A stretch of DNA of 64,000 nt from Mycolicibacterium mucogenicum DSM 44124 (GTDB taxonomy: Bacteria; Actinomycetota; Actinomycetes; Mycobacteriales; Mycobacteriaceae): positions 4,030,001-4,094,000 of the forward strand of contig NZ_CP062008.1 in the NCBI RefSeq assembly GCF_005670685.2. Direction: 5' to 3'. Shown here in pieces: positions 5,244-35,641 of this stretch (positions are counted from its first letter, which is position 1; each line of letters starts with the position of its first letter). The position numbers and the translations under genes are program-made. Under the pieces are notes generated by a model, which searched no databases, had not been told where the DNA came from, and saw nothing but the letters and a program-made list of their open reading frames with translations.

Positions 5244-6140
5244 ATGAACCTGCAGCAGCTCCATTACGTGGTCGCCCTGGCCGAAGCGAAGAGCTTCACC
5301 AAGGCGGCCGAGACCTCGTTCGTCGTGCAGTCGGCGCTCAGCCAGCAGGTGCGGAAGTTCGAAGAAGAGCTCGGCGTGACGCTCTTCGAGCGCACCACCC
5401 GGGCCGTCTCGCTCACTCCCGCAGGTGAGGCGCTCCTGCCGCTGGTGCACCAGGTGGTCGCCGGCATCGACCAACTCAAGGTCGACGCCCAGGCGCTCAG
5501 CGGGACGGTGACCGGACGCCTCACCGTCGGGATGATGGAGGTGCCGTCCGAAAGCCTCGACGTCGCAACGCTGATGGCGACATTCCACTCCCGCTACCCG
5601 GACGTGAGCGTGACCCTGCGCAGCGGTGGCAGCGACATCCTGCTGACCGCGACCCGCGACCGCAAGCTCGATGCCGCCATTGTCGGCTCCAATGTCTCCC
5701 CGGCCAGCGACCAATTGGATTTCACCCACTTGTTCACCGAGTCGTTGATCGCGGTCATGCCGCGCGACCATCCGCTGACCAGACAGCGGGCGGTGTCGCT
5801 GACCGAACTGGCGGCGTTGCCGTTCATCGACTTTCCGCTCGGTTACGGCCTTCGGCACGAAACCGACCGCGGCTTCGCGGGCGTGCCGCGACGGGTGGCC
5901 TTCGAGGTCACCCGTGTCGACGAGGTCGTGCACTTCGTGCGGCAGAACCTCGGGGTGGCGCTGCTGCCGGAATCGGTTGCGCGAACCCGTGCCGACAGCG
6001 ACAGCACCCTGGCGCTCCGCCCTGTCACCGGCGTCCAGATGCACCGCCAGGTGCACCTGGTGGCACCCAGACCCCACCTGCGCTCGGCGGCCTGCCAGGC
6101 GTTCATCGCCTGTGTCCATGACCACCTGGCGACACCCTAG
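5244..6140 (+). CDS. LysR-family transcriptional regulator
   Basis: 298 aa. The N-terminal winged helix (residues 1-60) has the typical LysR pattern: AEAKSFTKAAETSFVVQSAL, then LSQQVRKFEEELGVTLFERT. The rest is a LysR substrate-binding domain. The gene is divergent from the DUF3604/ABC operon with a perfect inverted repeat between them. Its stop codon overlaps that of the convergent M20 gene in a shared CTAG. It is the only regulator among the first 11 kb, so it may control both ABC operons. The inducer is unknown. Confidence 0.92.
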   Translation: MNLQQLHYVVALAEAKSFTKAAETSFVVQSALSQQVRKFEEELGVTLFERTTRAVSLTPAGEALLPLVHQVVAGIDQLKVDAQALSGTVTGRLTVGMMEVPSESLDVATLMATFHSRYPDVSVTLRSGGSDILLTATRDRKLDAAIVGSNVSPASDQLDFTHLFTESLIAVMPRDHPLTRQRAVSLTELAALPFIDFPLGYGLRHETDRGFAGVPRRVAFEVTRVDEVVHFVRQNLGVALLPESVARTRADSDSTLALRPVTGVQMHRQVHLVAPRPHLRSAACQAFIACVHDHLATP

Positions 6141-21187: not shown

Positions 21188-21871
21188 CTACCTGGGCCAC
21201 AATGCGTTCCGCCACAGGGCTGACACCGCATCGGTAGTGCGATCGAGGTGGCCGGATTGCGCACCGACACCCGCGGGTGCGCTGCCGACGACCGTCGCGG
21301 TGGTCAGGACACGCACCAGAGCGGGGAGGTCGGTCGAGATCGGTTGGGCGCCTTGATAGACCTCGGCCGACACAATCTCCACGATGCGGCGAGTGATCGC
21401 GTCCTCCACGGCCGCGACGATCTCGGCGATCTCCGGTTCGTAGCCTGCTGATGCGCGACACGAGGCCCACACCGGGTCGTCGGCAGCCAGGGCGGCACGG
21501 ATACCGGCGATGACACGTGCGATCAATGCCGGAGTGGACTCCCCCGGTGTCCGCAACGCGAACGACTGATCGAGCATCGCGGCAGTGGTGCGTCCATGCA
21601 ACAGTTCCGCCAAGGCGGAGTACTTGGATTCGAAATAGAAATAGAACGCGGTTCGCGTGACACCGGCCTGCCGAGTGATCGCCTGTACTGAAACCTCCGT
21701 AATCGGGTTTCGATCCAACAATTCGCGTAGCGCTGTCAAAATTGCCGTACGGGCGTGATCACCACGATTGGTGATCGTCGTTCGATCACGACCGGTAGCG
21801 CTCGGACTGTCGGTGGCAGTCGGACTCGCCTGGCAGCACGTGCCGTTCGGTTGACGTCGGGTTGCCAACAT
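21188..21871 (-). CDS. TetR-family regulator, EthR-like
   Basis: 227 aa from the ATG at 21869-21871, which has AGAAGGAG upstream. About 45 polar residues precede the HTH (PITEVSVQAITRQAGVTRTA, then FYFYFESKYSAL). The F-Y-F-Y-F pattern is shared with EthR, the repressor of the BVMO gene ethA in M. tuberculosis. It is divergent from the acyl-CoA synthetase gene and convergent with the Abi-alpha-like gene, and its promoter region carries the second copy of the TGAAACAAT element. Confidence 0.88.
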   Translation of the reverse strand: MLATRRQPNGTCCQASPTATDSPSATGRDRTTITNRGDHARTAILTALRELLDRNPITEVSVQAITRQAGVTRTAFYFYFESKYSALAELLHGRTTAAMLDQSFALRTPGESTPALIARVIAGIRAALAADDPVWASCRASAGYEPEIAEIVAAVEDAITRRIVEIVSAEVYQGAQPISTDLPALVRVLTTATVVGSAPAGVGAQSGHLDRTTDAVSALWRNALWPR

Positions 21872-21958
21872 CACGGCTCTCCTTCTGTCGGGCAAGGTAT
21901 TTCACGAAACACAGCAGGCATCGGACGACGCGCGCGGGATCGCCCCATCTTTTGCGAT

Positions 21959-21988
21959 TGAAACAATCATACGCAATATGTTCTACTG
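21959..21988. promoter_or_regulatory. Operator-like element, copy 2 of 2
   Basis: The element starts TGAAACAAT and ends TGTTCTACTG. It aligns with the 15978-16007 copy over 30 positions with 22 identities, counted by eye. It sits between the divergent EthR-like regulator (start 21871) and the acyl-CoA synthetase (start 22058). A second TGTTTCA lies just downstream (about 21987-21993). It suggests one regulator for both operons. Confidence 0.55.
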
Positions 21989-22057
21989 TTTCAGCCTGAG
22001 CCGTTGCGGCCGCACCCGGTCCGGACGCCGCACGGCACTGCTGTGAGAAGGGTTGTG

Positions 22058-23818
22058 ATGAGCGAAAGTCTGTGCGCGCACTTCCAGCGGCGCGTTGCCG
22101 AGCTCGGTGACATCGCGGCGATTTGCCGCGCCGACGGCACGGTGGCGTTGACCTGGTCGGAGTACGGCAATCAAGTTCGACGGGTGGCAGCGGGTCTGGC
22201 CGCGCTGGGCGTGCGGCGGGGCGATGTGGTGGCGATGATGCTCACCAATCGCCCCGAGTTCCACGTTGTCGACGCCGCGGTGATGCATCTCGGTGCGATC
22301 GGCTTTTCGGTCTACAACACCAGCGCCGCGGCGCAGATCACGTACCTGTTCGACAACGCCCAGCCGGCAGTCGTGGTCAGTGAGGCGCAATATCTGGAGA
22401 AGGTGCTCGCTGCCTCATCGGGCACCGCTGTGCGCCAAGTCATCTCGGTCGACGAGCCGAACCACGGTGTGCTCACCCTCGATGAGTTAGTAGATGGTGG
22501 TGCTGAGGATTTCGACTTCGACGCCGCTTGGAAAGCCATTCAGCGCGACGACATCCTGACCCTCATTTACACCAGTGGGACCACAGGGCATCCCAAAGGT
22601 GTAGAGCTGACGCACGGCAACCTGCTGTACCAGCTGGAGGTGATCCCGAGTGTGGTCGGCAATCTCACTGGGGGTCGAGTGCTGTCCTATCTGCCGGATG
22701 CGCACCTGATCAATCGTTGGATCGGCCAATACGCGCCGATGTACTTCGGTATCACGGTCACCGACGTCGATGACCCGAAGATACTGATCGACATACTGGG
22801 CCGCGTGCATCCGACGTTCTTCGTCGCGGTACCGATGCTCTGGTACAAGATTCGGGCTCGTGTCGAGGCACTCATCGCGGTGCAGACTGGACCAGCAGGC
22901 GCGCTCGCGCGGTGGGCTCTGGCAGCCGGCAAGAAGAAGGCGGGAGCCACCCTGGTGGGAGGCCGGTTGGGACTACTCGACGAAGCAGCCGCCGCCGCGG
23001 CAGACGTGTTGGTGTTATCCAAGATTCGCGCACGCCTAGGAATGGACCAACTGAGCGCGGCCGTGTCGGGCGCTGCGCCCATCGATGTCTCCGTACTCGA
23101 GTTCATGCTTGCGATCGGTGTTCCCGTGTTGGAGGCATGGGGCATGTCGGAGACCTCCGCGGTCACGACCGTCAATCCCAGAGACCGGCTCAAGCTCGGC
23201 ACGGTGGGTAGACCAATCCCCGGCACACAAATCAAACTGGCTACCGACGGCGAGATTCTGGTCCGCGGATGTGGGGTGATGCGCGGATACCACCGCGATC
23301 CCGGTCGCACCGCGGAAATCCTCGATGTCGACGGCTGGATCCACACGGGCGACATCGGCTCGCTCGATGCCGACGGGTATCTGCGTATCGTCGACCGTAA
23401 GAAGGAGTTGATCATCAACTCCGGCGGAAAGAACATGTCCCCCAGCAACATCGAGGGAGCACTGAAAGCGGCCAGCCCGCTGATCGGCGCTGTCGCTGCC
23501 ATTGGTGACAACCGTCCGCACATCGCCGCGCTGATCACGCTCGACCCCGATGCGGCCGCTGACTTCGCCTCCCGGCATGGATTCGCCGGCGCCACCGTCG
23601 ACGAGATGGTCGACCACGAGGCGACACAGCAGGCTGTGTCTGATGCGGTGGCGTCGGCGAATACCCGGCTATCCCGGGTAGAGCAGATTCGGAGCTGGAA
23701 AGTCCTGCCGCAGTACTGGATTCCCGGCGGGGATGAACTGACGCCGACGCTCAAGCTGCGCCGCGCACCCATCGCCGAAAAATACGCCGCAGAGATCGAC
23801 GCGCTCTACACGCGTTGA
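22058..23818 (+). CDS. Acyl-CoA synthetase (FadD type, AMP-binding)
   Basis: 586 aa from the ATG at 22058 with GAGAAGG upstream. The P-loop-like motif YTSGTTGHPKG is at 171-181. The adenylation motif WGMSETSAV and the hinge region DRKKELIINSGGKNMSPSNIE are present. The length and sequence fit long-chain fatty-acid or lipid-side-chain CoA ligases. An insert rich in alanine around residues 290-340 is as in other ligases of this subgroup. It is followed after 17 bp by an acyl-CoA dehydrogenase, so activation and first oxidation are coupled. Confidence 0.9.
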   Translation: MSESLCAHFQRRVAELGDIAAICRADGTVALTWSEYGNQVRRVAAGLAALGVRRGDVVAMMLTNRPEFHVVDAAVMHLGAIGFSVYNTSAAAQITYLFDNAQPAVVVSEAQYLEKVLAASSGTAVRQVISVDEPNHGVLTLDELVDGGAEDFDFDAAWKAIQRDDILTLIYTSGTTGHPKGVELTHGNLLYQLEVIPSVVGNLTGGRVLSYLPDAHLINRWIGQYAPMYFGITVTDVDDPKILIDILGRVHPTFFVAVPMLWYKIRARVEALIAVQTGPAGALARWALAAGKKKAGATLVGGRLGLLDEAAAAAADVLVLSKIRARLGMDQLSAAVSGAAPIDVSVLEFMLAIGVPVLEAWGMSETSAVTTVNPRDRLKLGTVGRPIPGTQIKLATDGEILVRGCGVMRGYHRDPGRTAEILDVDGWIHTGDIGSLDADGYLRIVDRKKELIINSGGKNMSPSNIEGALKAASPLIGAVAAIGDNRPHIAALITLDPDAAADFASRHGFAGATVDEMVDHEATQQAVSDAVASANTRLSRVEQIRSWKVLPQYWIPGGDELTPTLKLRRAPIAEKYAAEIDALYTR

Positions 23819-23835
23819 AGGAGAGGAAAAAGACA

Positions 23836-24975
23836 GTGACCCCCGCATCGACAACCGAACTTGCCGACCTGTCCGGTTTGGCCCGCGACTTCTTCACCAA
23901 GGAAGTCGCTCCGCGTCACGAGGAATTCGCCGCTGCCGGAGAGCCCGACCGTGCGTTGTATCGCCGTGCCGGCGACCTCGGGTTGCTACTGATGTCGATC
24001 CCGGAGGAATTCGGCGGCGGTGGTGCAACTTTCGCACACGAGGCGGTTCTGTTCCGGGAGCAGGCCTATGCAGGCGATCTGTCCATGCAGTTGGGTGTCC
24101 ACACGGGCATCGTCCCGCACTACCTGAACGCCTACGCCACCCCCGAGCAGAAGCTGCGCTGGCTGCCCAAACTCGCTGCCGGTGACTGGATCGGCGCGAT
24201 TGCCATGACCGAGCCCGGTACCGGATCGGATCTGCAGGCCATTTCGACGCGAGCCGTTCGCGTGGGAGACGAGTACGTGATCTCCGGCGCCAAGACGTTC
24301 ATTTCGAACGGCGCGACGTGCGACCTCATCATCATCGCGGCCAAGACCGATCCGCAGCAGGGTGCGGCCGGGTTGTCGCTGTTCGCTGCCGAAGTTCGCG
24401 ACGACACTCCGGGATTCCAGCGCGGCCGCAAGCTGAAGAAGATCGGCCAGAAAGGGCAGGACACCACCGAACTGTTCTTCGATGAACTTCGCGTCCCCGC
24501 GGAGAACCTGCTCGGCGGCGTCGAAGGTCGCGGCTTCGTCCAGCTGATGCAGCAGTTGCCGCAGGAGCGCCTGATCGTGGGCGTCGCCGCGCTGGGCGCG
24601 GTCGAGGCCGCGTACGACCACACGCTGGCGTACGTCAAGGAGCGCCACGTGTTCGGGAAGCCGCTTTTCGCCCTGCAGAACACCCGTTTCGAACTGGCCG
24701 AGATCGCCACCGTGGTCGACGTCATGCGTACGTTCGTCGACGACGCGATCCAGCGTCACGTCCGCGGCGACCTCGACGTCAAACGAGCCGCGCAGGTCAA
24801 ACTCTGGTGCTCCGACCAACAGACACAAATCGTCGACCGCTGCCTGCAGCTACATGGCGGCTATGGCTACATGGAGGAATACCCCATCTCCCGACTGTTC
24901 GTCGACAGTCGGATCTCACGGATCTATGCCGGCGCCAACGAAGTCATGAAGGACCTCATCGCGCGCCACCTCTAG
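23836..24975 (+). CDS. Acyl-CoA dehydrogenase, long-chain (LCAD-like) type
   Basis: 379 aa from the GTG at 23836, which follows GGAGAGG. FAD- and substrate-binding motifs IAMTEPGTGSDL and TFISNGA are present. The C-terminal motif reads IYAGANEVMK, so the glutamate used as base by medium/short-chain enzymes is alanine here. A glutamate in the helix after LPQERL (GAVEAAY) lines up with the base of LCAD and isovaleryl-CoA dehydrogenase, so the enzyme should be active. It works with the preceding CoA ligase on a fatty or side-chain acid. Confidence 0.9.
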   Translation: MTPASTTELADLSGLARDFFTKEVAPRHEEFAAAGEPDRALYRRAGDLGLLLMSIPEEFGGGGATFAHEAVLFREQAYAGDLSMQLGVHTGIVPHYLNAYATPEQKLRWLPKLAAGDWIGAIAMTEPGTGSDLQAISTRAVRVGDEYVISGAKTFISNGATCDLIIIAAKTDPQQGAAGLSLFAAEVRDDTPGFQRGRKLKKIGQKGQDTTELFFDELRVPAENLLGGVEGRGFVQLMQQLPQERLIVGVAALGAVEAAYDHTLAYVKERHVFGKPLFALQNTRFELAEIATVVDVMRTFVDDAIQRHVRGDLDVKRAAQVKLWCSDQQTQIVDRCLQLHGGYGYMEEYPISRLFVDSRISRIYAGANEVMKDLIARHL

Positions 24976-25039: not shown

Positions 25040-25063
25040 GTACGGCCAGGCAAGGAGCAGGTG

Positions 25064-26263
25064 ATGGGTGGCCACACACCGATGGCGCCCGCACCTCAGC
25101 GCGGTGGCGCCGCACACGACATCCAATTCGGGGTGCTGGGCCCGCTGCAGGTGACCGTCGCGTCGAGGCCGATTCAGGTCGGGACGCCGAAACAGCGCGC
25201 GGTACTTGCCATGTTGGTCGCGAACGCCAACCGCGCCGTCAGTGCCGCTGACTTGATCACCGCAATTTGGGAAGACGAGCCACCCGCCGCCGCGCGCATC
25301 TCCGTGAGTGCGTACGTGTCGAATCTGCGCCGCATCCTCACCGAGGCAGGCATCGACGCCCATGCCGTCGTATCGACCGCACCCCACGGCTACCGACTCG
25401 AAATCACCCCCGAACAAAGCGATCTGGCCCGGTTTGCCACCGAACAGCAAGCCGGGATCAACGCCGCGGCCGCCGGACGCTTCGAAGCCGCCAGCACTCA
25501 CCTCACGACGGCACTGCGTCAGTGGCGCGGCGCCGTCCTCGACGACCTGCGCGACTTCGCCTTCACAGAGGCGCTGAGCAACGCGTTAGCCGAGGACAAA
25601 ATCGTTGCGCAGACCGCACGCGCCCACGCCGAGATCGCTTGTGGCCGAGCCCATACCGTCGTTCGTGAGCTCGAAACTCTGGTCGGCGAACATCCCTACC
25701 GCGAACCCCTCTGGGCACAACTGATCACGGCGTATTACCTCACCGACCGCCAATCCGATGCACTCGACACCTATCACCGGCTCAAGACAACGTTGTCCGA
25801 TGACCTCGGAATCGACCCCGCGCCGGCGCTGCGCACCCTGTACGAGCAAATCCTGCGTCAGGAACCACTCGACGTACAGCGCAATGCCCAGGCCGCGGCC
25901 CAGACGATCATCGCCTTCGAACCCGCTGTGACGACCCTGATCGACCCTGTCACCGCGGCCCTGCGCGACGTGCACGATCGCCTTCATCGGCTCAAGGGTG
26001 CGGCCACCCGCATCGGGCGCAGCCCCGACAATGACCTTGTCGTGGCCGACGACAAGGTCAGCCGGCACCACGCCGTCATCAACAATGCCGGCTCCACCCA
26101 CATCATCACCGACCTCGGATCTGCCAACGGAGTCCATGTCAACGGCGAGCGCATCCGCGCCACGGCTGAACTCCACGACGGCGACACCATTCGAGTCGGT
26201 GCACAGGTGTTCGTCTTCCAGACCTACCCGCCCGCCACGGGGCCGGACGGTGACAAGGCCTGA
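25064..26263 (+). CDS. SARP/BTAD regulator with C-terminal FHA domain (EmbR-like)
   Basis: 399 aa. The order is an OmpR-type winged helix (about residues 22-110, with TPKQRAVLAMLVANANRAVS), a bacterial transcriptional activation domain (about 120-265), then an FHA domain (about 305-385) with IGRSPDNDLVV, SRHH and NGVHVNG. This is the architecture of EmbR, which binds phosphothreonine on itself or on kinases of the PknH type. The ATG at 25064 is preferred over the GTG at 25061 because AAGGAG lies 6 nt upstream. No kinase gene is nearby. Its target may be itself or flanking operons. Confidence 0.88.
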   Translation: MGGHTPMAPAPQRGGAAHDIQFGVLGPLQVTVASRPIQVGTPKQRAVLAMLVANANRAVSAADLITAIWEDEPPAAARISVSAYVSNLRRILTEAGIDAHAVVSTAPHGYRLEITPEQSDLARFATEQQAGINAAAAGRFEAASTHLTTALRQWRGAVLDDLRDFAFTEALSNALAEDKIVAQTARAHAEIACGRAHTVVRELETLVGEHPYREPLWAQLITAYYLTDRQSDALDTYHRLKTTLSDDLGIDPAPALRTLYEQILRQEPLDVQRNAQAAAQTIIAFEPAVTTLIDPVTAALRDVHDRLHRLKGAATRIGRSPDNDLVVADDKVSRHHAVINNAGSTHIITDLGSANGVHVNGERIRATAELHDGDTIRVGAQVFVFQTYPPATGPDGDKA

Positions 26264-26279: not shown

Positions 26280-26350
26280 GATAGCCGGCACGACTCCGAC
26301 GTGACGGTAGCGGCCAGCCCAAGCAGTGGTTGACGCATCGACAGATTAAT

Positions 26351-26365
26351 GGATACAGTGTATCC
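26351..26365. promoter_or_regulatory. Palindrome GGATACAGTGTATCC, probable TetR operator (site A)
   Basis: The arms GGATACA and TGTATCC around one base form a perfect palindrome, 91 bp before the amidohydrolase start. Related sites lie at 28583, 28674, 34622 and 35583, each next to a promoter of the same gene block. The likely binder is the TetR protein at 34793-35542. Confidence 0.65.
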
Positions 26366-26456
26366 ACAACTGGTTGCGCCGCGCTGCCCCCGATTCACCT
26401 ACGACGTGAGGGCGCAGTCTGTGACGAGACTCCCAGCCGCAGAATCGGAGACAACG

Positions 26457-27851
26457 GTGAGCCGAATATTGCTACGCGGTGCACAGGTCATCACCATGGC
26501 CCCGCATCGCCCCGACACCGAACGCATCGACATCCTCGTCGAGGACGATCGCATCGCGGCGATGGGCGACCACCTCGATCCGACCGGCGCCGACGTTGTC
26601 GACCTCAAGAACCACATCGTCATCCCCGGACTCGTCAACGCCCACCTGCACACGTGGCAGTCCGCACTACGGTTCGTCGGCGGTGACTGGTCGCTGCTGG
26701 AATACCTGGCCCACACTCACGGTCACGTCGCCCGCAGATACGGCCCCGACGACATGCACATCGGGACGCTGGCCGGCGCGTTGAACCAAATCAATTGCGG
26801 CACAACTACTGTGGGCGACTGGTGCCACAACTGCCTGACTCCGGAGCACGCCGATGCCGCCATCGACGCACTGAACGTTGCCGGCATCCGCGCGGTCTTC
26901 TTTCACGGCACACCCCACGGCGGCCCCACCAAACCCCATGACGTGTCCGAGGTCGACCGCCTCATCAACGGTCCCATCGCCCACAGCACGCTGCTTGCCG
27001 CGGGAATGGCGATCAAGGGTCCGCAATTGTCCGCTTCCGACGTGGTGATCGCGGACCTCCGGGCCGCCGTCGAACGCGGCGTGACCGCATCGATGCACCA
27101 GAGCGCCGGAACGCCCGGACCCGGCTGGAGCGCGGTCGGCGCTACCGGACTGTGGGGTCCACACGCCAACATCGTGCACGGCACCGGACTGACCGACGAC
27201 TGGGTGAAGAAGCTCACCGACGCCGGAGTCACGTTCACGACCACGCCGGAAAACGAACTGGGTCAAGGACATTGCACGGCAATCACCGAACAACTCGTGC
27301 GTGCCGGCGGAGCGCCGTCGCTCGGCACCGACACCGAAACGGCCGTATCGGGTGAAGTCCTCACCGCTGCCCGCATCACCCTGGCCCGCCAACGAGGCCT
27401 GGCACACGAGCAGGAATTCCACCGCACCGGCATGGGCGCGGCCACCGCGGGGCTCACCAGCAAACAGGCGCTGTCGTGGGCAACCGTCCATGGCGCACGC
27501 GCCCTCGGCCTGGCCGACAAGGTCGGCCACCTCTCCCCCGGGATGCAAGCCGACATCGTCGTCATCGACGCCCGGGCACTGAACCTGTGGCCGGCCCATG
27601 ACCCGGTCACCGCGGCGCTGCACGCCAGCATCGCCAACATCGAAGCGGTCATGGTCGCCGGGCGCTGGCGCAAGCGGCACCACACCTTGATCGAAACCGA
27701 CATCGATGAAGTCAAGGACCGGCTACAGGAGTCGGGAGAACGGTTCGCCCACAAGATCCGCGCGACCGGCCCGCTTGCCCGAACCCGACGCCGCGTCGTC
27801 CGCACGATCGTGCGCCGACACCTTCGGCACCAAGCTCGCTCCGAGAGCTAG
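26457..27851 (+). CDS. Amidohydrolase (cytosine deaminase/AtzA/TrzN-like)
   Basis: 464 aa from the GTG at 26457, which has GGAG 7 nt upstream. A more distal in-frame ATG at 26349 would read through the palindromic operator and is rejected. The metal motif H63-x-H65 is in NAHLHTW, and further histidines and a late aspartate (GTDTET) fit the TIM-barrel amidohydrolases that deaminate or dechlorinate ring compounds. The C-terminal 50 residues are rich in arginine. It stands alone on its transcript and is convergent with a cutinase gene. Substrate unknown. Confidence 0.85.
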   Translation: MSRILLRGAQVITMAPHRPDTERIDILVEDDRIAAMGDHLDPTGADVVDLKNHIVIPGLVNAHLHTWQSALRFVGGDWSLLEYLAHTHGHVARRYGPDDMHIGTLAGALNQINCGTTTVGDWCHNCLTPEHADAAIDALNVAGIRAVFFHGTPHGGPTKPHDVSEVDRLINGPIAHSTLLAAGMAIKGPQLSASDVVIADLRAAVERGVTASMHQSAGTPGPGWSAVGATGLWGPHANIVHGTGLTDDWVKKLTDAGVTFTTTPENELGQGHCTAITEQLVRAGGAPSLGTDTETAVSGEVLTAARITLARQRGLAHEQEFHRTGMGAATAGLTSKQALSWATVHGARALGLADKVGHLSPGMQADIVVIDARALNLWPAHDPVTAALHASIANIEAVMVAGRWRKRHHTLIETDIDEVKDRLQESGERFAHKIRATGPLARTRRRVVRTIVRRHLRHQARSES

Positions 27852-27899
27852 CAACGCGGCCCGACGACACGATCGAGAGTCACAAGCTCGACCGACCAC

Positions 27900-28526
27900 T
27901 CAGAGTCGACTCGCAGCGAAACCGGCTGCCTGGTCGGCCATGCCGGTGCGGACATAGGCGGTGTGCGCGCCCCAGTCCTGGCCGTCAGAGCAGATCAAGT
28001 CGTCGGGCAGACAGAGGTCGAGGGTCTTGCCGGTATACGCCGTGCCGACGGTGGGCAACTGGGCATGCATGAGCGTGGCCGCGTAGGCGCTCCGGAGATT
28101 GCCGAACAGCACCACCGCGGCAACGTGGTCCGCGATCTGCGGGGGCATCCCCGCGGTGGCCATACTGATGACGCCCGCGCCTTGTGAGTAGCCGCCCAGC
28201 ACCATCCGGGTTTTGGGGCAGGTCGTGACGACGGATTGAATGTGACCGCTCGCATCAGCGGATCCGGCGGGCATCCCGGTGTCGAAATCCCACGTGGCCG
28301 GGTAGTCGACGGCGTAGGCCTCGACCGAGCGTGTGCCCACGTGCGAGGCGAGCGAATCAACGAAAGCCTGTCCCACTTCGCCGAGCCCCGGCGGTTGTGT
28401 TGTCCCGCGGGCGAACACCACCTCGATATCCGGGCATTCGGCAGCGGAGGCGGACGGTGCGGGAATGTCGGCCACCGACAGTGCGCATGCCGCCGCGACC
28501 ACGGCAATGGAGATGTAGCTCTTCAA
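27900..28526 (-). CDS. Secreted cutinase-like serine esterase
   Basis: 208 aa with a signal peptide (cleavage after about residue 29, ASA-AE). The mature protein begins with a Cys of the conserved disulfide (C31-C103). The catalytic serine S114 is in GGYSQGAG, and the Asp/His part of the triad lies in the region after DLCLPDDLICSDG (His in GAHTAY). Mycobacterial cutinase-like proteins hydrolyse lipid esters outside the cell. Site B of the palindromic operator is 57 bp upstream, so it probably belongs to the TetR regulon of this block. Confidence 0.9.
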   Translation of the reverse strand: MKSYISIAVVAAACALSVADIPAPSASAAECPDIEVVFARGTTQPPGLGEVGQAFVDSLASHVGTRSVEAYAVDYPATWDFDTGMPAGSADASGHIQSVVTTCPKTRMVLGGYSQGAGVISMATAGMPPQIADHVAAVVLFGNLRSAYAATLMHAQLPTVGTAYTGKTLDLCLPDDLICSDGQDWGAHTAYVRTGMADQAAGFAASRL

Positions 28527-28582
28527 AGGTCTCCCAATTCGTCTGTCCGTCGCCGAGACCGATTGGCGCGCGGATGGCCAAT

Positions 28583-28597
28583 GGATACAGCGTATTT
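28583..28597. promoter_or_regulatory. Palindrome-like GGATACAGCGTATTT, probable TetR operator (site B)
   Basis: It matches site A at 12 of 15 positions, with one perfect arm. It is located upstream of the cutinase in the 165-bp divergent gap shared with the alpha/beta hydrolase operon. Confidence 0.5.
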
Positions 28598-28673
28598 GTT
28601 AGCGGCCATCGCCGACTCCCGACAGGTGTGTCCGACGCCCCACCAGCGGACTGTTGACACCAACACTAATTAC

Positions 28674-28688
28674 GGACACACTGTATCC
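28674..28688. promoter_or_regulatory. Palindrome GGACACACTGTATCC, probable TetR operator (site C)
   Basis: It fits the consensus GGATACAnTGTATCC with one mismatch. It ends 3 bp before the ATG of the first alpha/beta hydrolase, so binding would block transcription directly. A TTGACA at 28654-28659 could be the -35 of this promoter. The absence of a Shine-Dalgarno sequence suggests a leaderless message. Confidence 0.6.
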
Positions 28689-28691
28689 ATT

Positions 28692-29510
28692 ATGAAAAAC
28701 GGAGACTCGCAGCAGCCGCTGTACGAGACCGTGGACGGCGTAAGAGTTCACTACCAGCGCTCAGGCGACGGGCAGCCCCTGCTCCTGTTGCATGGCAGCA
28801 CGTCCTCGCTCGAGCACTTCGATCGGGCGACGGACATCTTGGACAGGCACTTCGACGTGATCCGTCCCGACCTGCCCGGTTTCGGCCTCACCGGGGCACG
28901 GAACGACCGCGACTACCGGATCCGGACCTATGCAAGAACGGTCGCTGGATTCATGGCGCAGCTGGGTATCGATCGGTACGCGATTGCGGGTAATTCGTTG
29001 GGCGGCAACGTCGCCTGGAACCTTGCGTTGGACTACCCCGACCGGGTGCGAGCGCTGGTGCTGGTCAACGCAACCGGCTACCCCGAGAAGGCGTTGCCTC
29101 TTGGCATGCGGCTCGCGCGCAACCCCGCGGTGGCACAGCTGATGCGGAGGGCCATGCCGCGGCGCATGGTCGAAGGCGGCCTGCGACAGGCGGTGGGTCC
29201 GCAGTCCACCATCGTCGATGACGCGATGGTCGATCGCGTGTACCGGTTGTGGAACCACAACGGCAACCGCGGGGCATTCGTTGATTTCGTCAACACCGAC
29301 CAACCCGACCGCACTTGCGAACTCGGCCGCATCCAGGTACCCACCCTCGTGCTGCGCAGCGCAAGCATCGACGGGCAACATTTCGCCCGCGACATCCCCC
29401 ATGCCCGCCAGGCCGTCAACCCCGACACCGGTCACCTGTTGCCCGAAGAAGACCCCGACTGGTTCACCGAACAGGTCATCGGGTTCCTGTCGACCCTCCC
29501 AAGGAACTGA
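28692..29510 (+). CDS. Alpha/beta-hydrolase (first in operon)
   Basis: 272 aa from the ATG at 28692. It has an oxyanion motif LLHGSTSS, the nucleophile elbow GNSLGG with S102, and the catalytic His in DTGHLLPEEDP near the C terminus. No signal peptide, so cytoplasmic. It resembles meta-cleavage-product hydrolases, epoxide hydrolases and esterases, and cannot be narrowed further. It begins an operon with a second hydrolase and a flavin monooxygenase, spaced by 2 bp and -4 bp. Confidence 0.87.
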   Translation: MKNGDSQQPLYETVDGVRVHYQRSGDGQPLLLLHGSTSSLEHFDRATDILDRHFDVIRPDLPGFGLTGARNDRDYRIRTYARTVAGFMAQLGIDRYAIAGNSLGGNVAWNLALDYPDRVRALVLVNATGYPEKALPLGMRLARNPAVAQLMRRAMPRRMVEGGLRQAVGPQSTIVDDAMVDRVYRLWNHNGNRGAFVDFVNTDQPDRTCELGRIQVPTLVLRSASIDGQHFARDIPHARQAVNPDTGHLLPEEDPDWFTEQVIGFLSTLPRN

Positions 29511-29512
29511 CC

Positions 29513-30409
29513 ATGAAGTACTTCACCGTGGCCTCCGAGGACCGCAAGCTCAACGCCGGAACCCGCACCGGGCTGCGCGGCAGCTTCATCAGACTCACCG
29601 ACGGCGTCACCCACCACGAACTACGCGGACCCACCGACGGACCGCTGGTGGTCCTCGTGCCGGGGCTGACCATCCCCTTGTCCTATTGGGATACCTTCGC
29701 CGGAGAACTGCACGCCCGCGGTTTGCAGACATTGGCCTTCAGCGCCTACGGGCGCGGCTACTCCGACCGCGTAGCCACCGCCTACGACGAGGCCCTGTTC
29801 GGTCGTCAGTTGCAAGAATTACTTGCGGCTCTTGATATCCCGGAGCACGTGCACCTCGTGGGCACCTCGATGGGGGCCCTGGTCGCGCTGGGCCACGTCG
29901 TCAATCACCCCGCCGGCGTCGCGAGTCTGACGCTGGTAGGTCCTGCGGGATTGGGCGCCGACAACGCACGTGTACAACGACTGCTGCGCAACGATGTGAT
30001 CGCCCGTATCGTCGCCCAGTTGTTCGGTCGGCGAATCCTTCTCGGGCATCTCGGGCACAACGTCGCCGACCCCGCCCTTACCGCGCCGCTGACCGCCATG
30101 ATCGCCGATGCGTACCGCTACGAAGGCTCGATGTACGGGTTCTTCTCCACACTGCAGAACTTCCCGCTGTCGAACCGCACCGCACTGTTCCGTACCGCCG
30201 GCCGACGCGAGATCCCGACCTTGCTGATGTGGGGCGCCGACGATCACGTCACCCCCATCACCGGCTGGGATACCGCGCAGGAAACCCTGCGCCCCAAACA
30301 AACACACGTCCTGGACTGCGGCCACATGGCGCCCTACGAGCGGCCCATCGAAGCCGCTGATCATCTGGTGGCATTTCTCGCCGCCCAATCCGATCGGAGC
30401 ACCACATGA
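29513..30409 (+). CDS. Alpha/beta-hydrolase (second in operon)
   Basis: 298 aa, ATG at 29513 with AAGGA 7 nt upstream. The nucleophile elbow GTSMGA puts Ser at 119. The acid is in WGADDHVTP and the His in DCGHMAPYERP, forming a complete triad. It has a longer N terminus than the first hydrolase and is only distantly similar to it, so the two probably handle successive steps or different esters. The stop overlaps the start of the monooxygenase (ATGA). Confidence 0.87.
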   Translation: MKYFTVASEDRKLNAGTRTGLRGSFIRLTDGVTHHELRGPTDGPLVVLVPGLTIPLSYWDTFAGELHARGLQTLAFSAYGRGYSDRVATAYDEALFGRQLQELLAALDIPEHVHLVGTSMGALVALGHVVNHPAGVASLTLVGPAGLGADNARVQRLLRNDVIARIVAQLFGRRILLGHLGHNVADPALTAPLTAMIADAYRYEGSMYGFFSTLQNFPLSNRTALFRTAGRREIPTLLMWGADDHVTPITGWDTAQETLRPKQTHVLDCGHMAPYERPIEAADHLVAFLAAQSDRSTT

Positions 30410-31995
30410 AACAACAAACCGTCGATGTCCTGATCGTCGGCGCCGGCCCGGTAGGCAGCGCCCTTGCGATCGATCTGATCCGCCGCGGCGTGGCCGTGCG
30501 CATCATCGATAAAGCCACGCACAGTTTTGACGGCTCGCGCGCCAAGGGTGTGCAGCCACGCACTCTGGAAGTCTTCGACGACCTCGGTGTCCTCGACGAT
30601 GTCGTCACCAGAGGATCGTCCTACCCGCTGATAGGATTCCACCTGGGGCCGTTCACGGTGCCGCTGCGCATGCTGCGTAGCCCGTACGCCGGCGACGACA
30701 CCGTCCCGTACCCGCATACCTTGCTGAGCCCACAATTCAGCACCGACCGAGCCCTGCACGATCGCTTGCGGACTCTCGGCGTCGACATCGACTACGGCCA
30801 CGAATTGACCACCGTCACCGAAACATCCGACGGCGTGACCGCTTCGATCACGACGCCGTCAGGCACCGAAACGCTCACCGCCCGCTACCTGGTGGGCGCC
30901 GACGGCGGTGCAAGCGCGGTACGCAAGATCGCCGGAATCGAATTCCTCGGCTCCACCGACGAGGCCGACCGGATGTTCATCTTCGATGCCGACGTCAGTG
31001 GAGGTCTTTCCCGGAACCGCTGGCATGTCTGGCCGGGACGCTTCCCCAATCTCAGCCAATTCACCGGCGCCTGCCCGCTGCCCCACGGTGACCAGTTCCA
31101 ATGGATGATCAAATTGGAGCCCAACGAAGCACCGCCGGTAGGCGAGGACGAGACTACCGCGTTCGTGCGCGCTCGCACCGGCAACAAACGCCTTGCGGTG
31201 CACAGCATCACGTGGACGTCGGTGTTCCGACCGAACATCCGGCTTGCCGAAAACTACCGCCGCGGAAGGATTTTCCTGGCCGGTGACGCCGCCCACGTTC
31301 ATCCCCCCACTGGCGCCCAGGGCCTCAACACCGGTGTCCAGGACGCGTACAACCTGGGCTGGAAGCTCGCGCAGGTACTCGCCGGAGCTGATGCACAGCT
31401 GCTCGATACCTACGAAGCCGAACGCCAACCGATCGCGTCGGCAGTGCTGGGTCTGGCCACGAAAAAGTACGACGGCATGACGAAACTCGACCCCTCGAGC
31501 CTGACCCGGGGCAAGGACGAACAACAGATCGCCCTGAGCTACCGCTGCGGCCCGCTGGCACCGTCGACTGCTCAACACACCGCTACGCTGCACGTCGGCG
31601 ACCGCGCCCCCGACGCGTCCCTGCATGATGACAAAGGCGCATCGGTCAGGTTGTTCGATCTCTATCGCGGGCCGCATTTCACCGCGCTGGCCGTTGGGGC
31701 CGAGGCGGCCGGCGAACTCGCAGAACTTGCCTGGCCGGACCGTGGCGCCCCACTGCGACGCATCACCGTCGACGCGCCTTCCCGACTCGACGACAACACC
31801 CAGAATCTGCGTGACACCGCCGGAAAGCTGCGCAAGGCATACGGAATCAACAGTGACACACTGATTCTCATCCGGCCCGATGGCTACATCGCCAGCATCG
31901 CGACCCGTGACGGCAGCGCTGCCGTCACGGCCGCCGCGGTCACCGCGCTTGCTCCCCCGGCCCACAAACCCACCATCAGGCGAACCATGCGCTGA
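30406..31995 (+). CDS. Group A FAD-dependent monooxygenase (phenol hydroxylase/Rox-like)
   Basis: 529 aa. FAD motif GAGPVG is at 12-17, the DG motif at VGADGGASAVRK and the GD motif at FLAGDAAHVHPPTGAQGLN. After about residue 390 there is a thioredoxin-like C-terminal domain, as in phenol and polyketide hydroxylases and rifampicin monooxygenase. It hydroxylates aromatic rings using NAD(P)H. In an operon with two hydrolases and near an MFS exporter and a TetR regulator, it may serve catabolism of an aromatic ester or detoxification of an aromatic antibiotic. The sequence does not decide which. Confidence 0.88.
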   Translation: MKQQTVDVLIVGAGPVGSALAIDLIRRGVAVRIIDKATHSFDGSRAKGVQPRTLEVFDDLGVLDDVVTRGSSYPLIGFHLGPFTVPLRMLRSPYAGDDTVPYPHTLLSPQFSTDRALHDRLRTLGVDIDYGHELTTVTETSDGVTASITTPSGTETLTARYLVGADGGASAVRKIAGIEFLGSTDEADRMFIFDADVSGGLSRNRWHVWPGRFPNLSQFTGACPLPHGDQFQWMIKLEPNEAPPVGEDETTAFVRARTGNKRLAVHSITWTSVFRPNIRLAENYRRGRIFLAGDAAHVHPPTGAQGLNTGVQDAYNLGWKLAQVLAGADAQLLDTYEAERQPIASAVLGLATKKYDGMTKLDPSSLTRGKDEQQIALSYRCGPLAPSTAQHTATLHVGDRAPDASLHDDKGASVRLFDLYRGPHFTALAVGAEAAGELAELAWPDRGAPLRRITVDAPSRLDDNTQNLRDTAGKLRKAYGINSDTLILIRPDGYIASIATRDGSAAVTAAAVTALAPPAHKPTIRRTMR

Positions 31996-32070
31996 CCACG
32001 GAAGCGCAGCGTCTGGGGTGGATACCGACCCGGTGTGATAGTCGGTTCGCGCGGGATATGGTCTGGGCCT

Positions 32071-32886
32071 GTGAGGTCCCGTTTTGCCATTGTGTGGCTC
32101 GTTGGTGCCGTCGTCGTGCTCGTGGCGGCGTTCAGGGTTGCCCCTGCCACGGTGGCCGGTGGCGGGTACGGCGGCTTCGATGACGCGGCGCCTTTGACCC
32201 ACGCACTGGGTATCAACCTGGTCGCATACTGGAACAGCGGTAACGGGGCCCTGACTCCCGGGATGGCTGACCTCGTTGACTATTGGCGCCGCTGGCACCT
32301 CGTCAAGGTCCTGATTTCGGTATCGTTGACTTGTGTTCTCGCGCTGCTTGCGACGGTGTTGTGGCAGCGCTTTCTTCGCGCTGGTACCAGCCGTTCGGCG
32401 GTGGGTTACATAGTCACCGCTGCGGTGGTCACCGTGCTGGCACTGTTCGGGGTCGCCGTGTTGGTGGCGAACGTGCAGTCGACGGTGGAGCCGCTGTCGG
32501 CGTTGCTCGGGTTGCTCCCCGTGGATCCGCCACGTGGAGAGCTCGAGCACACGTTGGGCCAGATTCGGCAGGGTCTTGCCGACCCGGGCAGCCCTGAGGG
32601 TGACAGGCCTGCTCTGGCGGTGATGGTGGGTAGCTATGCCCGATATCTCTGGACGCTGGTCCTAGCCGGCTCTGTCGTCGCTGCAGTGATGGCCGGCGCG
32701 GGCGTGTTCGCATGGAGGGCGTTCGTCAGCATCGACAGGGCAGATCTCAGGCGCAAGTTCACTGCCCTTGGCTTCGGTATCGCCGCTGTTGTCGTTGTCG
32801 CCGCAGTCCTTGTGGTCGTCGCAGCCAGTGTGGATTCGGCCTTGGAGCCTGCCAGTGCCCTTCTGGATTTCATCAACGGCGGCTAG
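32071..32886 (+). CDS. Membrane protein of unknown function
   Basis: 271 aa from the GTG at 32071. An in-frame GTG at 32035 would add 12 residues. I do not recognise the family. It has four hydrophobic segments (near residues 5-22, 85-105, 115-140, 195-220) and a fifth near the C terminus (about 235-260). The loop between the first two contains GGGYGGFDD and tryptophans and would face outside. There is no Shine-Dalgarno sequence; TATGGT at 32056-32061 could be a -10. It follows the monooxygenase by 75 bp and may not be part of that operon. Confidence 0.6.
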   Translation: MRSRFAIVWLVGAVVVLVAAFRVAPATVAGGGYGGFDDAAPLTHALGINLVAYWNSGNGALTPGMADLVDYWRRWHLVKVLISVSLTCVLALLATVLWQRFLRAGTSRSAVGYIVTAAVVTVLALFGVAVLVANVQSTVEPLSALLGLLPVDPPRGELEHTLGQIRQGLADPGSPEGDRPALAVMVGSYARYLWTLVLAGSVVAAVMAGAGVFAWRAFVSIDRADLRRKFTALGFGIAAVVVVAAVLVVVAASVDSALEPASALLDFINGG

Positions 32887-32957
32887 GGCCGCGCAGCGCC
32901 GGGGACCGGTGCAGATCCTGGTCCAGCAGAGAAGGATTCGCTGCTCGCGAGCTGCCT

Positions 32958-33311
32958 CTAGGCCGCGAAGCCGGCAAGGTAGGCGGTGGCGATGGCCAAG
33001 GTCACCACCGCCGGAAGCAGTTTCACCAGAGGGTCGCGCGCCCTGAAATGAAAGTACACGGCGCCGAAGAGCAAGAGCACCATGCCCGATGCGGCGAAAA
33101 ACCCACATACGGGCCAACGGAACCCAGCGGCGATGCCCACTGCGGCCGCGAGCAGTGCGACACCGGTCAAGCGATAGCGCGACCAAGGGATGCCGAAATG
33201 CTGTGCAGCATCCCGCATCGGCGGCGCACCGGCCAGGGTTGGCACAGCGGAGCCGGCGCACACCACGGCGAAGGTGACAGCCACGATGGTCCGGACCAGT
33301 TCGACATTCAT
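32958..33311 (-). CDS. DoxX-like small membrane protein
   Basis: 117 aa with four predicted membrane helices and the DoxX-like pattern (FAVVCAGSAVPTLAG, HFGIPWSRYRLTGV, FRARDP). An upstream in-frame GTG (33326) overlaps the AGGTG that would be its own ribosome site, so the ATG at 33309-33311 is preferred. DoxX-family proteins are often induced with oxidoreductases under electrophile or thiol stress. It lies downstream of the MFS gene on the same strand with a 91-bp gap and could be co-transcribed. Confidence 0.75.
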   Translation of the reverse strand: MNVELVRTIVAVTFAVVCAGSAVPTLAGAPPMRDAAQHFGIPWSRYRLTGVALLAAAVGIAAGFRWPVCGFFAASGMVLLLFGAVYFHFRARDPLVKLLPAVVTLAIATAYLAGFAA

Positions 33312-33402
33312 ACCTATTCCATTCACCTCGAGGCAGCGGCGCTGCCCAATTGTCGGTCGCCCGATGGCTTCCCCACGGCTTGCTCACCCGACAGCGGAAT
33401 CT

Positions 33403-34638
33403 TCAGTGCGTAGCGCGCCGGCTTTCCGTGATACTCATCAACAGGCACAGGCATGCAAGAGCGGCGACCGCCGCAGCGAAACACATTCCGGCGGTGCGCA
33501 AGCCCCATACGTGCGCGGCGAAGCCCTCGCCTATCACTGGTATCGAGATCGCAACGTAGGCCACAACGAAATATGTCGAGCTGACCCCGGCTCGCTGTTC
33601 AGGTAGAGCCTCTGCGGTAACCATTGCCAATCCCCTGCTGAAGCTGATGCCCTGGCCTGCGCCGCACATCAGCGCCGCGGCAATGAGGGCCATCACGGAC
33701 GAAAATTGCAGGGCCAGAGCGAGAATCAGCATGCCCAGGACCAGGGCGGCGCAACCGAACATGATCGCGCGCTGCGGCGCTGCTCGAGCCGTGGCAATCT
33801 GGGCCAGAGCCGAAGCGCTGTAGATCGACGCGACGATCAGCCCGGCGACCGCGTGATTGGTGACACCGATCAGGCTCGTGAGGAATGTTGGAGCGACGGC
33901 GGTGAACAACCCCATCACGGCGAAACCGCAAAACCCCGCGGCCGCCGAAATGGCAAACACGCGTCGCAGCCGTGGGGGCACGGAAGGCGGCTGGAATCTG
34001 AGTTGACCAGTACGCGTGGAGGTTTCCGGCACCACCAGCACCGCCAGTCCAGCCAGCAGTGCGAAGGCAATGTGAACGACGAAAGTCAGATGCAATGGCG
34101 CGGGTGCATATTCGACCAGAATGCCGGACAGTACCGGCCCGACTCCCAAGCCGCCGATGTTTGCGATAGTCGCAATCGCTGAACTGTGGGAACGCCAGCG
34201 TGATGGTGCGGCTTCGATGATCGCGGCCGTCGCGGCGCCAGTGAACAATCCGGCGGACAATCCCGACAACGCGCGACCGACCAGGAGCAGCGGCACGGTA
34301 TCAGCGTCAAGAAACACTCCCGCACTGACAATGGCTGCAGCAACTCCGGCGATCAACACCGGCCTACGCCCGATGACATCGGACCAACGACCAAAAGCCA
34401 GCAGCGCGAACAGAACACCGCCCGCGTACACGGCATAGACAACGGTGGTCGTCAACACCGAAAAATGAATCTGCTGGGCGTAGAGCGAGTACATCGGCGT
34501 CGGCAGGGTCGTGCCGGCCATGATCGCCGCGAAAGCGTAAGCCAACAGGAACGCCGGAACTGCTCGGCGGGAACCGGTTTCGCGGTCCGGCGGTGCGGCG
34601 GGTGCGCGACCCGCTAATTTTGGCAACACAGTTACCAT
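33403..34638 (-). CDS. MFS transporter (drug/metabolite exporter)
   Basis: 411 aa from the ATG at 34636-34638, with about 12 membrane segments. The motif between the second and third helices, LLAFGRWSDVIGRRPVLI, matches MFS motif A of the proton-driven exporters. The first visible helix begins AFLLAYAFAAIMAGTTLP. A degenerate palindromic operator (site E, 34622-34636) overlaps the start codon, so it probably belongs to the TetR regulon. The exported compound is unknown. Confidence 0.87.
   Translation of the reverse strand: MVTVLPKLAGRAPAAPPDRETGSRRAVPAFLLAYAFAAIMAGTTLPTPMYSLYAQQIHFSVLTTTVVYAVYAGGVLFALLAFGRWSDVIGRRPVLIAGVAAAIVSAGVFLDADTVPLLLVGRALSGLSAGLFTGAATAAIIEAAPSRWRSHSSAIATIANIGGLGVGPVLSGILVEYAPAPLHLTFVVHIAFALLAGLAVLVVPETSTRTGQLRFQPPSVPPRLRRVFAISAAAGFCGFAVMGLFTAVAPTFLTSLIGVTNHAVAGLIVASIYSASALAQIATARAAPQRAIMFGCAALVLGMLILALALQFSSVMALIAAALMCGAGQGISFSRGLAMVTAEALPEQRAGVSSTYFVVAYVAISIPVIGEGFAAHVWGLRTAGMCFAAAVAALACLCLLMSITESRRATH
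34622..34636. promoter_or_regulatory. Degenerate palindrome, possible TetR operator (site E)
   Basis: GGCAACACAGTTACC keeps the GG..ACA and CC ends of the consensus but matches only about 9-10 of 14 informative positions. It overlaps the first codons of the MFS gene. Weak on its own; supported by context. Confidence 0.3.
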
Positions 34639-34792
34639 TATTACAGGACCAAGGGGCGCCGCCACAACCCTCCAGCACGTCCGCCACATTCACGGCGGAT
34701 TCGGGCCCGGCAGACAGGGCCGCCGCGAGCCTATTCGGATCAGCGAATCTGGGTGCAGTAGCGCGATAGAGCCCGCCGGGGCTCCGCGTGGC

Positions 34793-35542
34793 TTACTCCG
34801 GCTTCTTGCGGCTTCGGACTGCCTTGCCGCCGCGCGCGTGGCGATCGCGGCCGTCGTACAGGTCCGTCACGCCGGAAATGATCATCCGCAAGCCGAATTC
34901 GAACTCGTCGTGCAGTGGAATCGGCAGCACATCGGCGACCGCATACGTCGAGGGAAACGACTCCGGGTCCAGATAGTGGAAGTGCGCCGACAGGTCCGCA
35001 GATTCCTGCGCGTTGGAGGCGTCGTCTCCTCGCAGCTGCACCGCGAAACCCAAGACGTATCGCGCGACCGTCGCATGCGTTTTGGCCGCCAATTCTGGCG
35101 TAAAGCCACTCGCGAGCAATCGCGACAACACCCGTTCGCGATGCAACATCGCGTTCGGCCCTATCGGCACATGGTCGGCCAGCAGGGGTGCGACGTTCTT
35201 GTGCCGACTGAGCGCGTCGAACATGGCGTGCGCGCCGGCGGCGCAGTCTTCCTGCCACGTCCGACCACCAGAATCATCCGGCGGGTATTCGATCTCACCG
35301 AGAACGCGATCAATGACATGCGCGATCAACTCGGCCCGGTTCGAGACGTGTCGATACAGGGTCGCGGTTCCCGAGTCGAGCCGCTGAGCCAAGACGCGCA
35401 TCGACAACGCGTCGGCGCCCTCGTCGTCGACGATTTGCAGTGCGGTCGCGACGATCCGATCAAACGGAACTTTGGGGCGGCCGGGCGAGCGGACTGCGGG
35501 AGTTGCCGCCGCGTCGACGGGCGTGCGCGATGTTCGTGCCAT
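34793..35542 (-). CDS. TetR-family regulator, likely repressor of the 26-35 kb block
   Basis: 249 aa from the ATG at 35540-35542. The HTH is near residues 40-80 (ALSMRVLAQRLDSGTATLYR), preceded by the GRPKVPFDRIV segment typical of the TetR subgroup with a tetracycline-repressor-like C domain. It faces away from site D (35583-35597), a relative of the palindromes in front of the amidohydrolase, cutinase, hydrolase and MFS genes. I infer that it represses itself and those genes. An upstream in-frame start (35599) would overlap site D and is rejected. Confidence 0.85.
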   Translation of the reverse strand: MARTSRTPVDAAATPAVRSPGRPKVPFDRIVATALQIVDDEGADALSMRVLAQRLDSGTATLYRHVSNRAELIAHVIDRVLGEIEYPPDDSGGRTWQEDCAAGAHAMFDALSRHKNVAPLLADHVPIGPNAMLHRERVLSRLLASGFTPELAAKTHATVARYVLGFAVQLRGDDASNAQESADLSAHFHYLDPESFPSTYAVADVLPIPLHDEFEFGLRMIISGVTDLYDGRDRHARGGKAVRSRKKPE

Positions 35543-35582
35543 ACAGGCAGTATGACCGTACTTGACAGCGCACCCCAATAAT

Positions 35583-35597
35583 GGAAACACTGTGGCC
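35583..35597. promoter_or_regulatory. Palindrome-like GGAAACACTGTGGCC, probable autoregulatory site (site D)
   Basis: It matches the GGATACAnTGTATCC consensus at 11 of 14 informative positions and is 40 bp upstream of the TetR start. Confidence 0.45.
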
Positions 35598-35641
35598 ACT
35601 ACCGTGTCAGCCTGCGAGGGCCAATCAGGATGGGTGCAATG

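Follow-up and report, generated by a model that had tools for sequence, protein, structure and literature searches.

A TetR-family regulator and a 27-bp operator predicted to control genes for degrading a lipophilic aromatic compound in Mycolicibacterium mucogenicum

The window investigated here is a 64-kb stretch of the Mycolicibacterium mucogenicum DSM 44124 genome (G000:C1:4030001-4094000; the genome is a single contig of 6.10 Mb), in which a block of hydrolase, hydroxylase and transporter genes carries repeated palindromes and a gene for a TetR-family regulator (34793..35542, minus strand). We consider it very probable that this TetR and a 27-bp operator constitute a ligand-released repressor regulon for five transcription units of the window, probably serving the breakdown of a lipophilic aromatic compound. 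A sequence-only reading, made earlier without database searches, had proposed a TetR regulon here, and this agrees with the co-occurrence of motif and TetR across genomes, with operators at tetR and the target units, and with an operator that accompanies the amidohydrolase gene on another contig in a relative. In our model, whose binding, repression, ligand release, leaderless transcription, catabolic direction and substrate we infer from sequence, a TetR dimer would bind the 27-bp palindrome and repress the genes for an amidohydrolase (AmiH), a cutinase (weakly), two alpha/beta hydrolases with a flavin adenine dinucleotide (FAD) monooxygenase (HydA-HydB-FAD monooxygenase), a major facilitator superfamily (MFS) transporter with a DoxX-like protein, and TetR itself. 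A distant YceI-FAD monooxygenase operon would probably be repressed as well. At HydA, the bound repressor would cover the promoter and the start of a probably leaderless message. A small aromatic and probably lipophilic ligand, or its product, would release the repressor. Ring opening and cleavage would then be the work of the hydrolases and the hydroxylase, and the MFS protein would move the compound across the membrane.

Operators were scored with a 27-bp matrix built from 29 distinct, hand-picked sites upstream of relatives' tetR genes, in regions taken around the TetR homologues of genus members and genome records. The window and Mycolicibacterium sp. CBMA 226, the closest named relative in the sample (taken as G149; TetR 90% identical), were left out of the training, and 4 of the 29 sites also front HydA. 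A related palindrome lies upstream of nearly all relatives' tetR genes examined, with a consensus of approximately TAAYGGWWACA-N-TGTWWCCRTTA. The top five matrix scores of the 64 kb are the five sites of the sequence-only reading, to none of which a strand is assigned: operator C (28668..28694, score 41.8), whose last three bases are the HydA start codon; operator D (34616..34642, 36.8), at the MFS gene start; operator A (26345..26371, 36.1), before the amidohydrolase gene and with the exact core GGATACAGTGTATCC; operator E (35577..35603, 29.1), in an autoregulatory position with its centre 48 nt before tetR; and the degenerate operator B (28577..28603, 8.7), before the cutinase gene with its centre 64 nt from the start codon. 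The sixth-best score in the window is 3.6, and the maximum over 30 simulated 64-kb windows (third-order model) was 15.0. All five sites are thus present, but the copies are unequal. The same 15-bp palindrome had been claimed in front of three units; it is exact at 26351 (GGATACAnTGTATCC), has one mismatch at 28674 and three, mostly in one half, at the cutinase site (28583). It has three mismatches at 35583 as well, and the 34622 site was not matched at up to three. The sites at the MFS and tetR genes, described as weaker forms, are both strong by matrix, and the weak one is that of the cutinase gene. At up to three mismatches the palindrome matched five places in the window versus 0.73 expected, a number reached in 0/100 shuffles; one of these matches (5685-5699) lies outside the block and is absent from the 20 best matrix scores. 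The GC content of the block is unremarkable. Cutinases of loci L180 and L182 (85% identical) are preceded by sites of 32.8 and 17.5, likewise centred 64 nt from the start, and the window cutinase site is thus probably a decayed operator.

The sites had been said to be restricted to one 9-kb block, which is nearly right, with one strong site about 1 Mb away. With up to two mismatches allowed, the palindrome is present just twice in the entire genome, each time within the block. A loose pattern at the same tolerance yielded one strong outside site (G000:C1:3020960-3020986, score 32.6), with a weak second site (10.9) 41 bases beyond it, and five further outside places scoring at most 10.3. Frequent copies elsewhere in the genome, which the sequence-only reading had named as evidence against itself, were not found at this strictness. 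The bare core GGNNACANTGTNNCC occurs at six places genome-wide, four of them operator-like and two not. These scans were pattern-based, and sites further from the patterns could have escaped.

The presence of the motif was compared with that of the regulator in 148 genomes of the genus, 32 of which were TetR-positive (E ≤ 1.3e-48); TetR matches in G001, G013, G035 and G100 (E 1e-22 to 1e-20) were treated as non-orthologous. With a genome counted as motif-positive when it matched in either of two pattern searches, and with the window genome left out, the motif was found in 20/31 TetR-positive versus 3/116 TetR-negative genomes (Fisher p 4.9e-14), and all 10 other genomes matched in the second search were TetR-positive. 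The regulator itself (34793-35542) is the sole match in its own genome at E ≤ 1e-20. For counts per gene and locus, a matrix score of at least 18 was taken as a site. These counts leave out the window, include the duplicates L048/L168, and take two places each from the Burkholderia plasmid (L200, L204), the Rhodococcus plasmid (L202, L203) and genome G213 (L179, L182). A site lies near the tetR start in 60/63 TetR loci. Across 972 kb of loci plus the window, 68 of the 74 sites lie near the start of tetR, HydA, AmiH, DoxX, MFS, a gene termed c1 that adjoins tetR in many loci, or two co-occurring Streptomyces units. The remaining six comprise two tetR-upstream sites (L082, L090), one that fronts HydA (L058) and three in Streptomyces neighbourhoods without a called target start (L057, L060, L061), one of which is ~350-370 bases before a split MFS gene. 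The highest score was 10.6 in the three motif-bearing TetR-negative loci and in L064, where the TetR is only 28% identical.

The recognition helix S-G-T-A-T-L-Y-R-H (residues 56-64) is nearly invariant across homologues. Among its variants, L094 (T for A) is without a site, and L091 and L092 (other changes) retain sites of 41.8 and 30.7. The same 27-bp operator is kept by TetRs only ~45-60% identical, in both Actinomycetota and Pseudomonadota. A TetR tree, which omits L076 (internal stop) and L168 (duplicate of L048), groups the window protein with that of CBMA 226; the forks around this pair are open or have little support, and the tree contains several long branches. The TetR encoded at 34793-35542 is the likely binder of the motif.

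The operator was also followed at the target genes. HydA orthologues (E ≤ 1e-70) occur in 19/396 genus genomes, and the motif at up to one mismatch occurs in all 18 of these besides the window genome. Beyond the cluster sites and the G149 amidohydrolase site, these genomes held six off-cluster motif matches, against 21 matches for the backward control. HydA is rare in the wider phylum, where a search at E ≤ 1e-80 recovered it in 1/296 genomes, namely the window's own. A site fronts HydA in 34/34 loci, a set that ranges from mycobacterial and Streptomyces genomes to plasmids of Burkholderia and Shinella. Before AmiH, a site was found in 14/32 loci. Ten of the 18 AmiH genes without their own site adjoin and follow the monooxygenase gene (two of them encode only 32-34% identical proteins) and five follow c1; L054 and L062 extend beyond the examined stretch, and L203, at 15.5, falls just short. 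In CBMA 226, AmiH lies on a separate contig yet has its own site, scoring 45.1. The MFS gene is preceded by a site in 2/11 loci, which are one record counted twice (L048 = L168; 32.9 at the same place), and seven of the nine misses are downstream of the monooxygenase gene. The AmiH and MFS misses mostly track operon structure. Of the seven cutinase loci, one has a site before the gene and another reaches 17.5; the cutinases of the remaining five share just ~44% identity.

Several results weigh against the proposed regulon and its binder. A backward control matched 8/148 genomes versus 16/148 for the motif in the first pattern search, and 2 versus 11 in the second. At pattern strictness the motif is missing from 11/31 TetR-positive genomes, 9 of which score at least 33 at tetR by matrix. 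Three TetR loci fall under 18 (L063, 16.6; L094, 0.3; L095, 9.5), and the tetR-site test is partly circular, as the matrix was trained on hand-picked tetR-upstream sites. The cutinase site of the window is near background. In 21/31 genus TetR loci the regulator adjoins c1 instead of, or without, the enzyme cassette, so the ligand may differ among them. The monooxygenase of the distant operon was not found in the closest relative, G149, at E ≤ 1e-60, and the operator was present at 0/10 loci of its homologues (48-52% identical), one of which is a second copy in the same genome; this distal member may consequently be private to the window genome.

The products of the block were assigned by family and structural matches. 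AmiH (26457..27851, plus strand) belongs to the Amidohydro_1/PRK08204 family (Pfam, NCBIfam). Its GTG start at 26457 suits homologues better than the ATG at 26349, as the alignments of many begin at the first residue of the GTG-initiated protein; the alternative ATG falls within operator A. The cutinase-family esterase (27900..28526, minus strand; Pfam Cutinase) is putatively secreted. HydA (28692..29510, plus strand; Pfam Abhydrolase_1) has solved relatives among C-C hydrolases such as HsaD and BphD, and also fluoroacetate dehalogenase. It is followed by HydB (29513..30409, plus strand), an alpha/beta hydrolase by Pfam and PDB relatives, and the two together have relatives among C-C and ester hydrolases. 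The FAD-dependent aromatic hydroxylase (30406..31995, plus strand) carries FAD_binding_3 and Rng_hyd_C domains and scores 616.5 bits against NCBIfam NF004832 (cut-off 476), which places it in the PRK06184 subfamily; its best PDB match is 4k2x, a polyketide oxygenase/hydroxylase. The start of the MFS transporter gene (33403..34638, minus strand; Pfam MFS_1) is an inferred one. If the ATG at 34638 is used, the first codons lie within operator D, and another start would place the operator in the leader. The DoxX-like membrane protein gene (32958..33326, minus strand; Pfam DoxX_2) lies downstream of the MFS gene in the same gene order as in L048, and the two are probably co-transcribed. The regulator matches Pfam TetR_N at 25.2 bits (gathering 24) and TetR_C_1 at 70.8 (21). 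Between the monooxygenase and DoxX genes, a gene at 32071-32886 encodes a protein of 271 amino acids with no Pfam or NCBIfam match; there is no operator-like site near it, and it is unmatched in the CBMA 226 locus L048.

The sequence-only reading had further suggested a pathway for an aromatic ester or antibiotic. This is partly supported, in that the hydrolases, the aromatic hydroxylase and the amidohydrolase form a conserved cassette; the substrate it names is conjectural. Burkholderia plasmid neighbourhoods of the cassette encode OmpW, quinone oxidoreductases, VOC, cupin, EthD and Rieske proteins and a benzoylformate decarboxylase, and together with the enzyme set these fit the catabolism of a lipophilic aromatic. 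A serious rival, plausible though we judge it to fall short of even, is that the regulon protects the bacterium itself from an antibiotic such as an aromatic polyketide or one like it, through export and oxidative inactivation, rather than growth on a plant compound. Its TetR relatives include ActR and tetracycline repressors, the FAD monooxygenase is nearest to a polyketide oxygenase and rifampin monooxygenases in the PDB, and the MFS protein weakly resembles multidrug exporters. However, breakdown is the better fit to an enzyme set of two hydrolases, amidohydrolase and cutinase, and to plasmid neighbourhoods of catabolic appearance (OmpW, quinone oxidoreductases, VOC). The monooxygenase also reached 241.6 bits against the rifampin monooxygenase model NF033145 (equivalog cut-off 800) and the regulator 67.2 bits against the tetracycline resistance repressor model NF010319 (cut-off 265), both far below their cut-offs.

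Within the catabolic reading, a sorgoleone-like alkylquinone is our leading, and tentative, guess for the substrate. The record of Burkholderia anthina SO82, which bears the plasmid cassette, refers to the sorghum rhizosphere and to root exudates. Genes by which bacteria associated with sorghum degrade sorgoleone were reportedly the subject of a 2023 bioRxiv preprint by Oda et al., cited in PMC12642758; SO82 is presumably one of its isolates, and a TetR and an alpha/beta hydrolase are reportedly involved. We regard the sorgoleone link as a lead. In PMC12642758, a paper of 2025, sorgoleone degradation genes are described as abundant in sorghum-rhizosphere Streptomyces. Isoflavone catabolism uses an FAD monooxygenase and an alpha/beta hydrolase as well, according to the excerpted text of PMC11069340, in which the matches to 'tetr' that were seen stand for tetracycline.

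The position of the operators bears on the sign of the regulation. Some TetR-family proteins act as activators, and the regulator might be an activator or mixed regulator at these sites, which we consider very improbable. The HydA operator 27-mer ends in ATG in 33/34 loci, overlapping the start, and is in frame with HydA in 32/34; the annotated HydA start is the operator ATG in L199, L200, L201 and L203 and is not in L202. An operator that ends on the HydA ATG suggests a leaderless or nearly leaderless transcript that the repressor would block. At the amidohydrolase gene, the operator overlaps a promoter-like -10, a weak point since the scan found 2 such elements versus 1.2 expected. Location over a start codon or a -10 favours blocking, and hence repression.

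Another regulator could in principle bind the palindromes with TetR as a bystander, for example the SARP/FHA (EmbR-like) protein encoded at 25061-26263, whose gene adjoins operator A and, with 83% conservation, also stands at the cassette edge in L174. This is very improbable, because the motif follows TetR across genomes and on plasmids of other phyla, sites are present at tetR itself, and the EmbR-like protein was found in 1/70 loci searched (L174). Perfect dyads can fold, and a terminator-like call was made on the minus strand at 28690-28672 (7 found vs 6.2 expected), but we regard mobile or structural DNA (repetitive extragenic palindromes, miniature inverted-repeat transposable elements or hairpins) as a barely conceivable source of the repeats, given that their placement with respect to start codons is conserved (the operator ends on the ATG of HydA and is centred 64 nt from the cutinase start) and given the rarity of the core genome-wide.

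The HydA-HydB-monooxygenase-AmiH cassette with its TetR was found in Streptomyces and on plasmids of Rhodococcus fascians, Burkholderia anthina and Shinella sumterensis. Operator scores on the plasmids are 28.4 and 21.8 in Rhodococcus (L203 and L202), 44.4, 35.2 and 36.1 in Burkholderia (L200, L204) and 27.8 in Shinella (L201). In L174 (6117-15084), the cassette has the same neighbours on either side as the window block (83% and 86% identical), with its order rearranged. Its AmiH is 95% identical to that of the window versus 50% for TetR and 61% for HydA, which suggests that regulator and enzymes were exchanged around a resident amidohydrolase gene. More broadly, and as a rather doubtful extension, the TetR-operator pair may be a portable regulatory address that joins unrelated units (the cassette, the cutinase, a PNPOx-like gene and the YceI-monooxygenase pair) into an inducible pathway that acts on lipophilic quinones from roots, sorgoleone being an example, with parts exchangeable around the resident amidohydrolase. 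The data suggest a regulon whose shared binding site preserves its unity even as individual genes relocate or give way to others. The Burkholderia anthina SO82 plasmid locus L204 also holds, at 21437-24359, a second, incomplete cassette of HydA, monooxygenase and a TetR annotated only as a C-terminal part, with the operator of 36.1. A TetR homologue stands beside c1 in L049, L053, L065-L081, L083, L084, L086 and L092, with an operator between the two in nearly all. The c1 product that was tested is PNPOx-like, below the Pfam cut-off (21.8 vs 28.1 bits), and AmiH follows c1 in L053 and L065-L068.

The regulon is well supported from sequence comparison and is of a familiar kind, that of a TetR repressor with palindromes of a 15-bp core, though of unusual breadth and with an operator fused to a start codon. 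SCO7222/SCO7223 of Streptomyces coelicolor likewise combines a TetR repressor, a divergent monooxygenase gene and repeated 15-bp palindromes with a one-base centre, in the accessible part of PMC3511530. Its operator as given there, TGGAACGnCGTTCCA, differs from that of the window, and its three sites lie in one intergenic region, whereas those of the window regulon are distributed among five transcription units and one operon far away. The tetracycline repressor TetR and ActR share the architecture of the window TetR (TetR_N, TetR_C_1) with detectable sequence similarity, and also have a palindromic operator of 15 bp (length from the same part of PMC3511530). ActR operators contain CCACCGTT according to that text, unlike the window motif, and the targets of the window TetR are mostly enzymes and not just an exporter. 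The aqdRABC system of Mycobacterium abscessus and Rhodococcus, as described in the portion of PMC5332414 that was available, likewise places a TetR-family autoregulator beside hydrolysing and monooxygenating genes for an aromatic signal compound. In the same portion, AqdA is a type-B carboxylesterase, AqdC is a ring-cleaving dioxygenase and the aqdR inverted repeat is TTGTCGCATCGACAA, unlike the window operator. The aqd alkylquinolone pathway was rejected for the window on its different palindrome and because a scan of ten window proteins gave no hit to a carboxylesterase family, the Aqd proteins being compared by description. The operator was not found in literature searched with 11-base pieces, for which the matches listed looked unrelated by title, and no paper on the gene set was found there either. 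A survey of mycobacterial TetR regulators reports 11 new motifs in the excerpts of PMC4482099, and an overlap with the window operator is possible. A sharp operator for this TetR group makes it possible to list the enzymes that are co-regulated with it in two bacterial phyla. Should the substrate prove to be an allelochemical from roots, searching for the operator could reveal further bacteria able to respond to it.

The distal operator precedes a YceI-family gene and a gene for a 615-residue FAD monooxygenase with an aromatic hydroxylase C-terminus (G000:C1:3018397-3020986; L115 6898-9487). It is adjoined by a TetR_C_21 regulator gene and a convergent carotenoid-oxygenase-like (RPE65) gene (L115 9650-11756).

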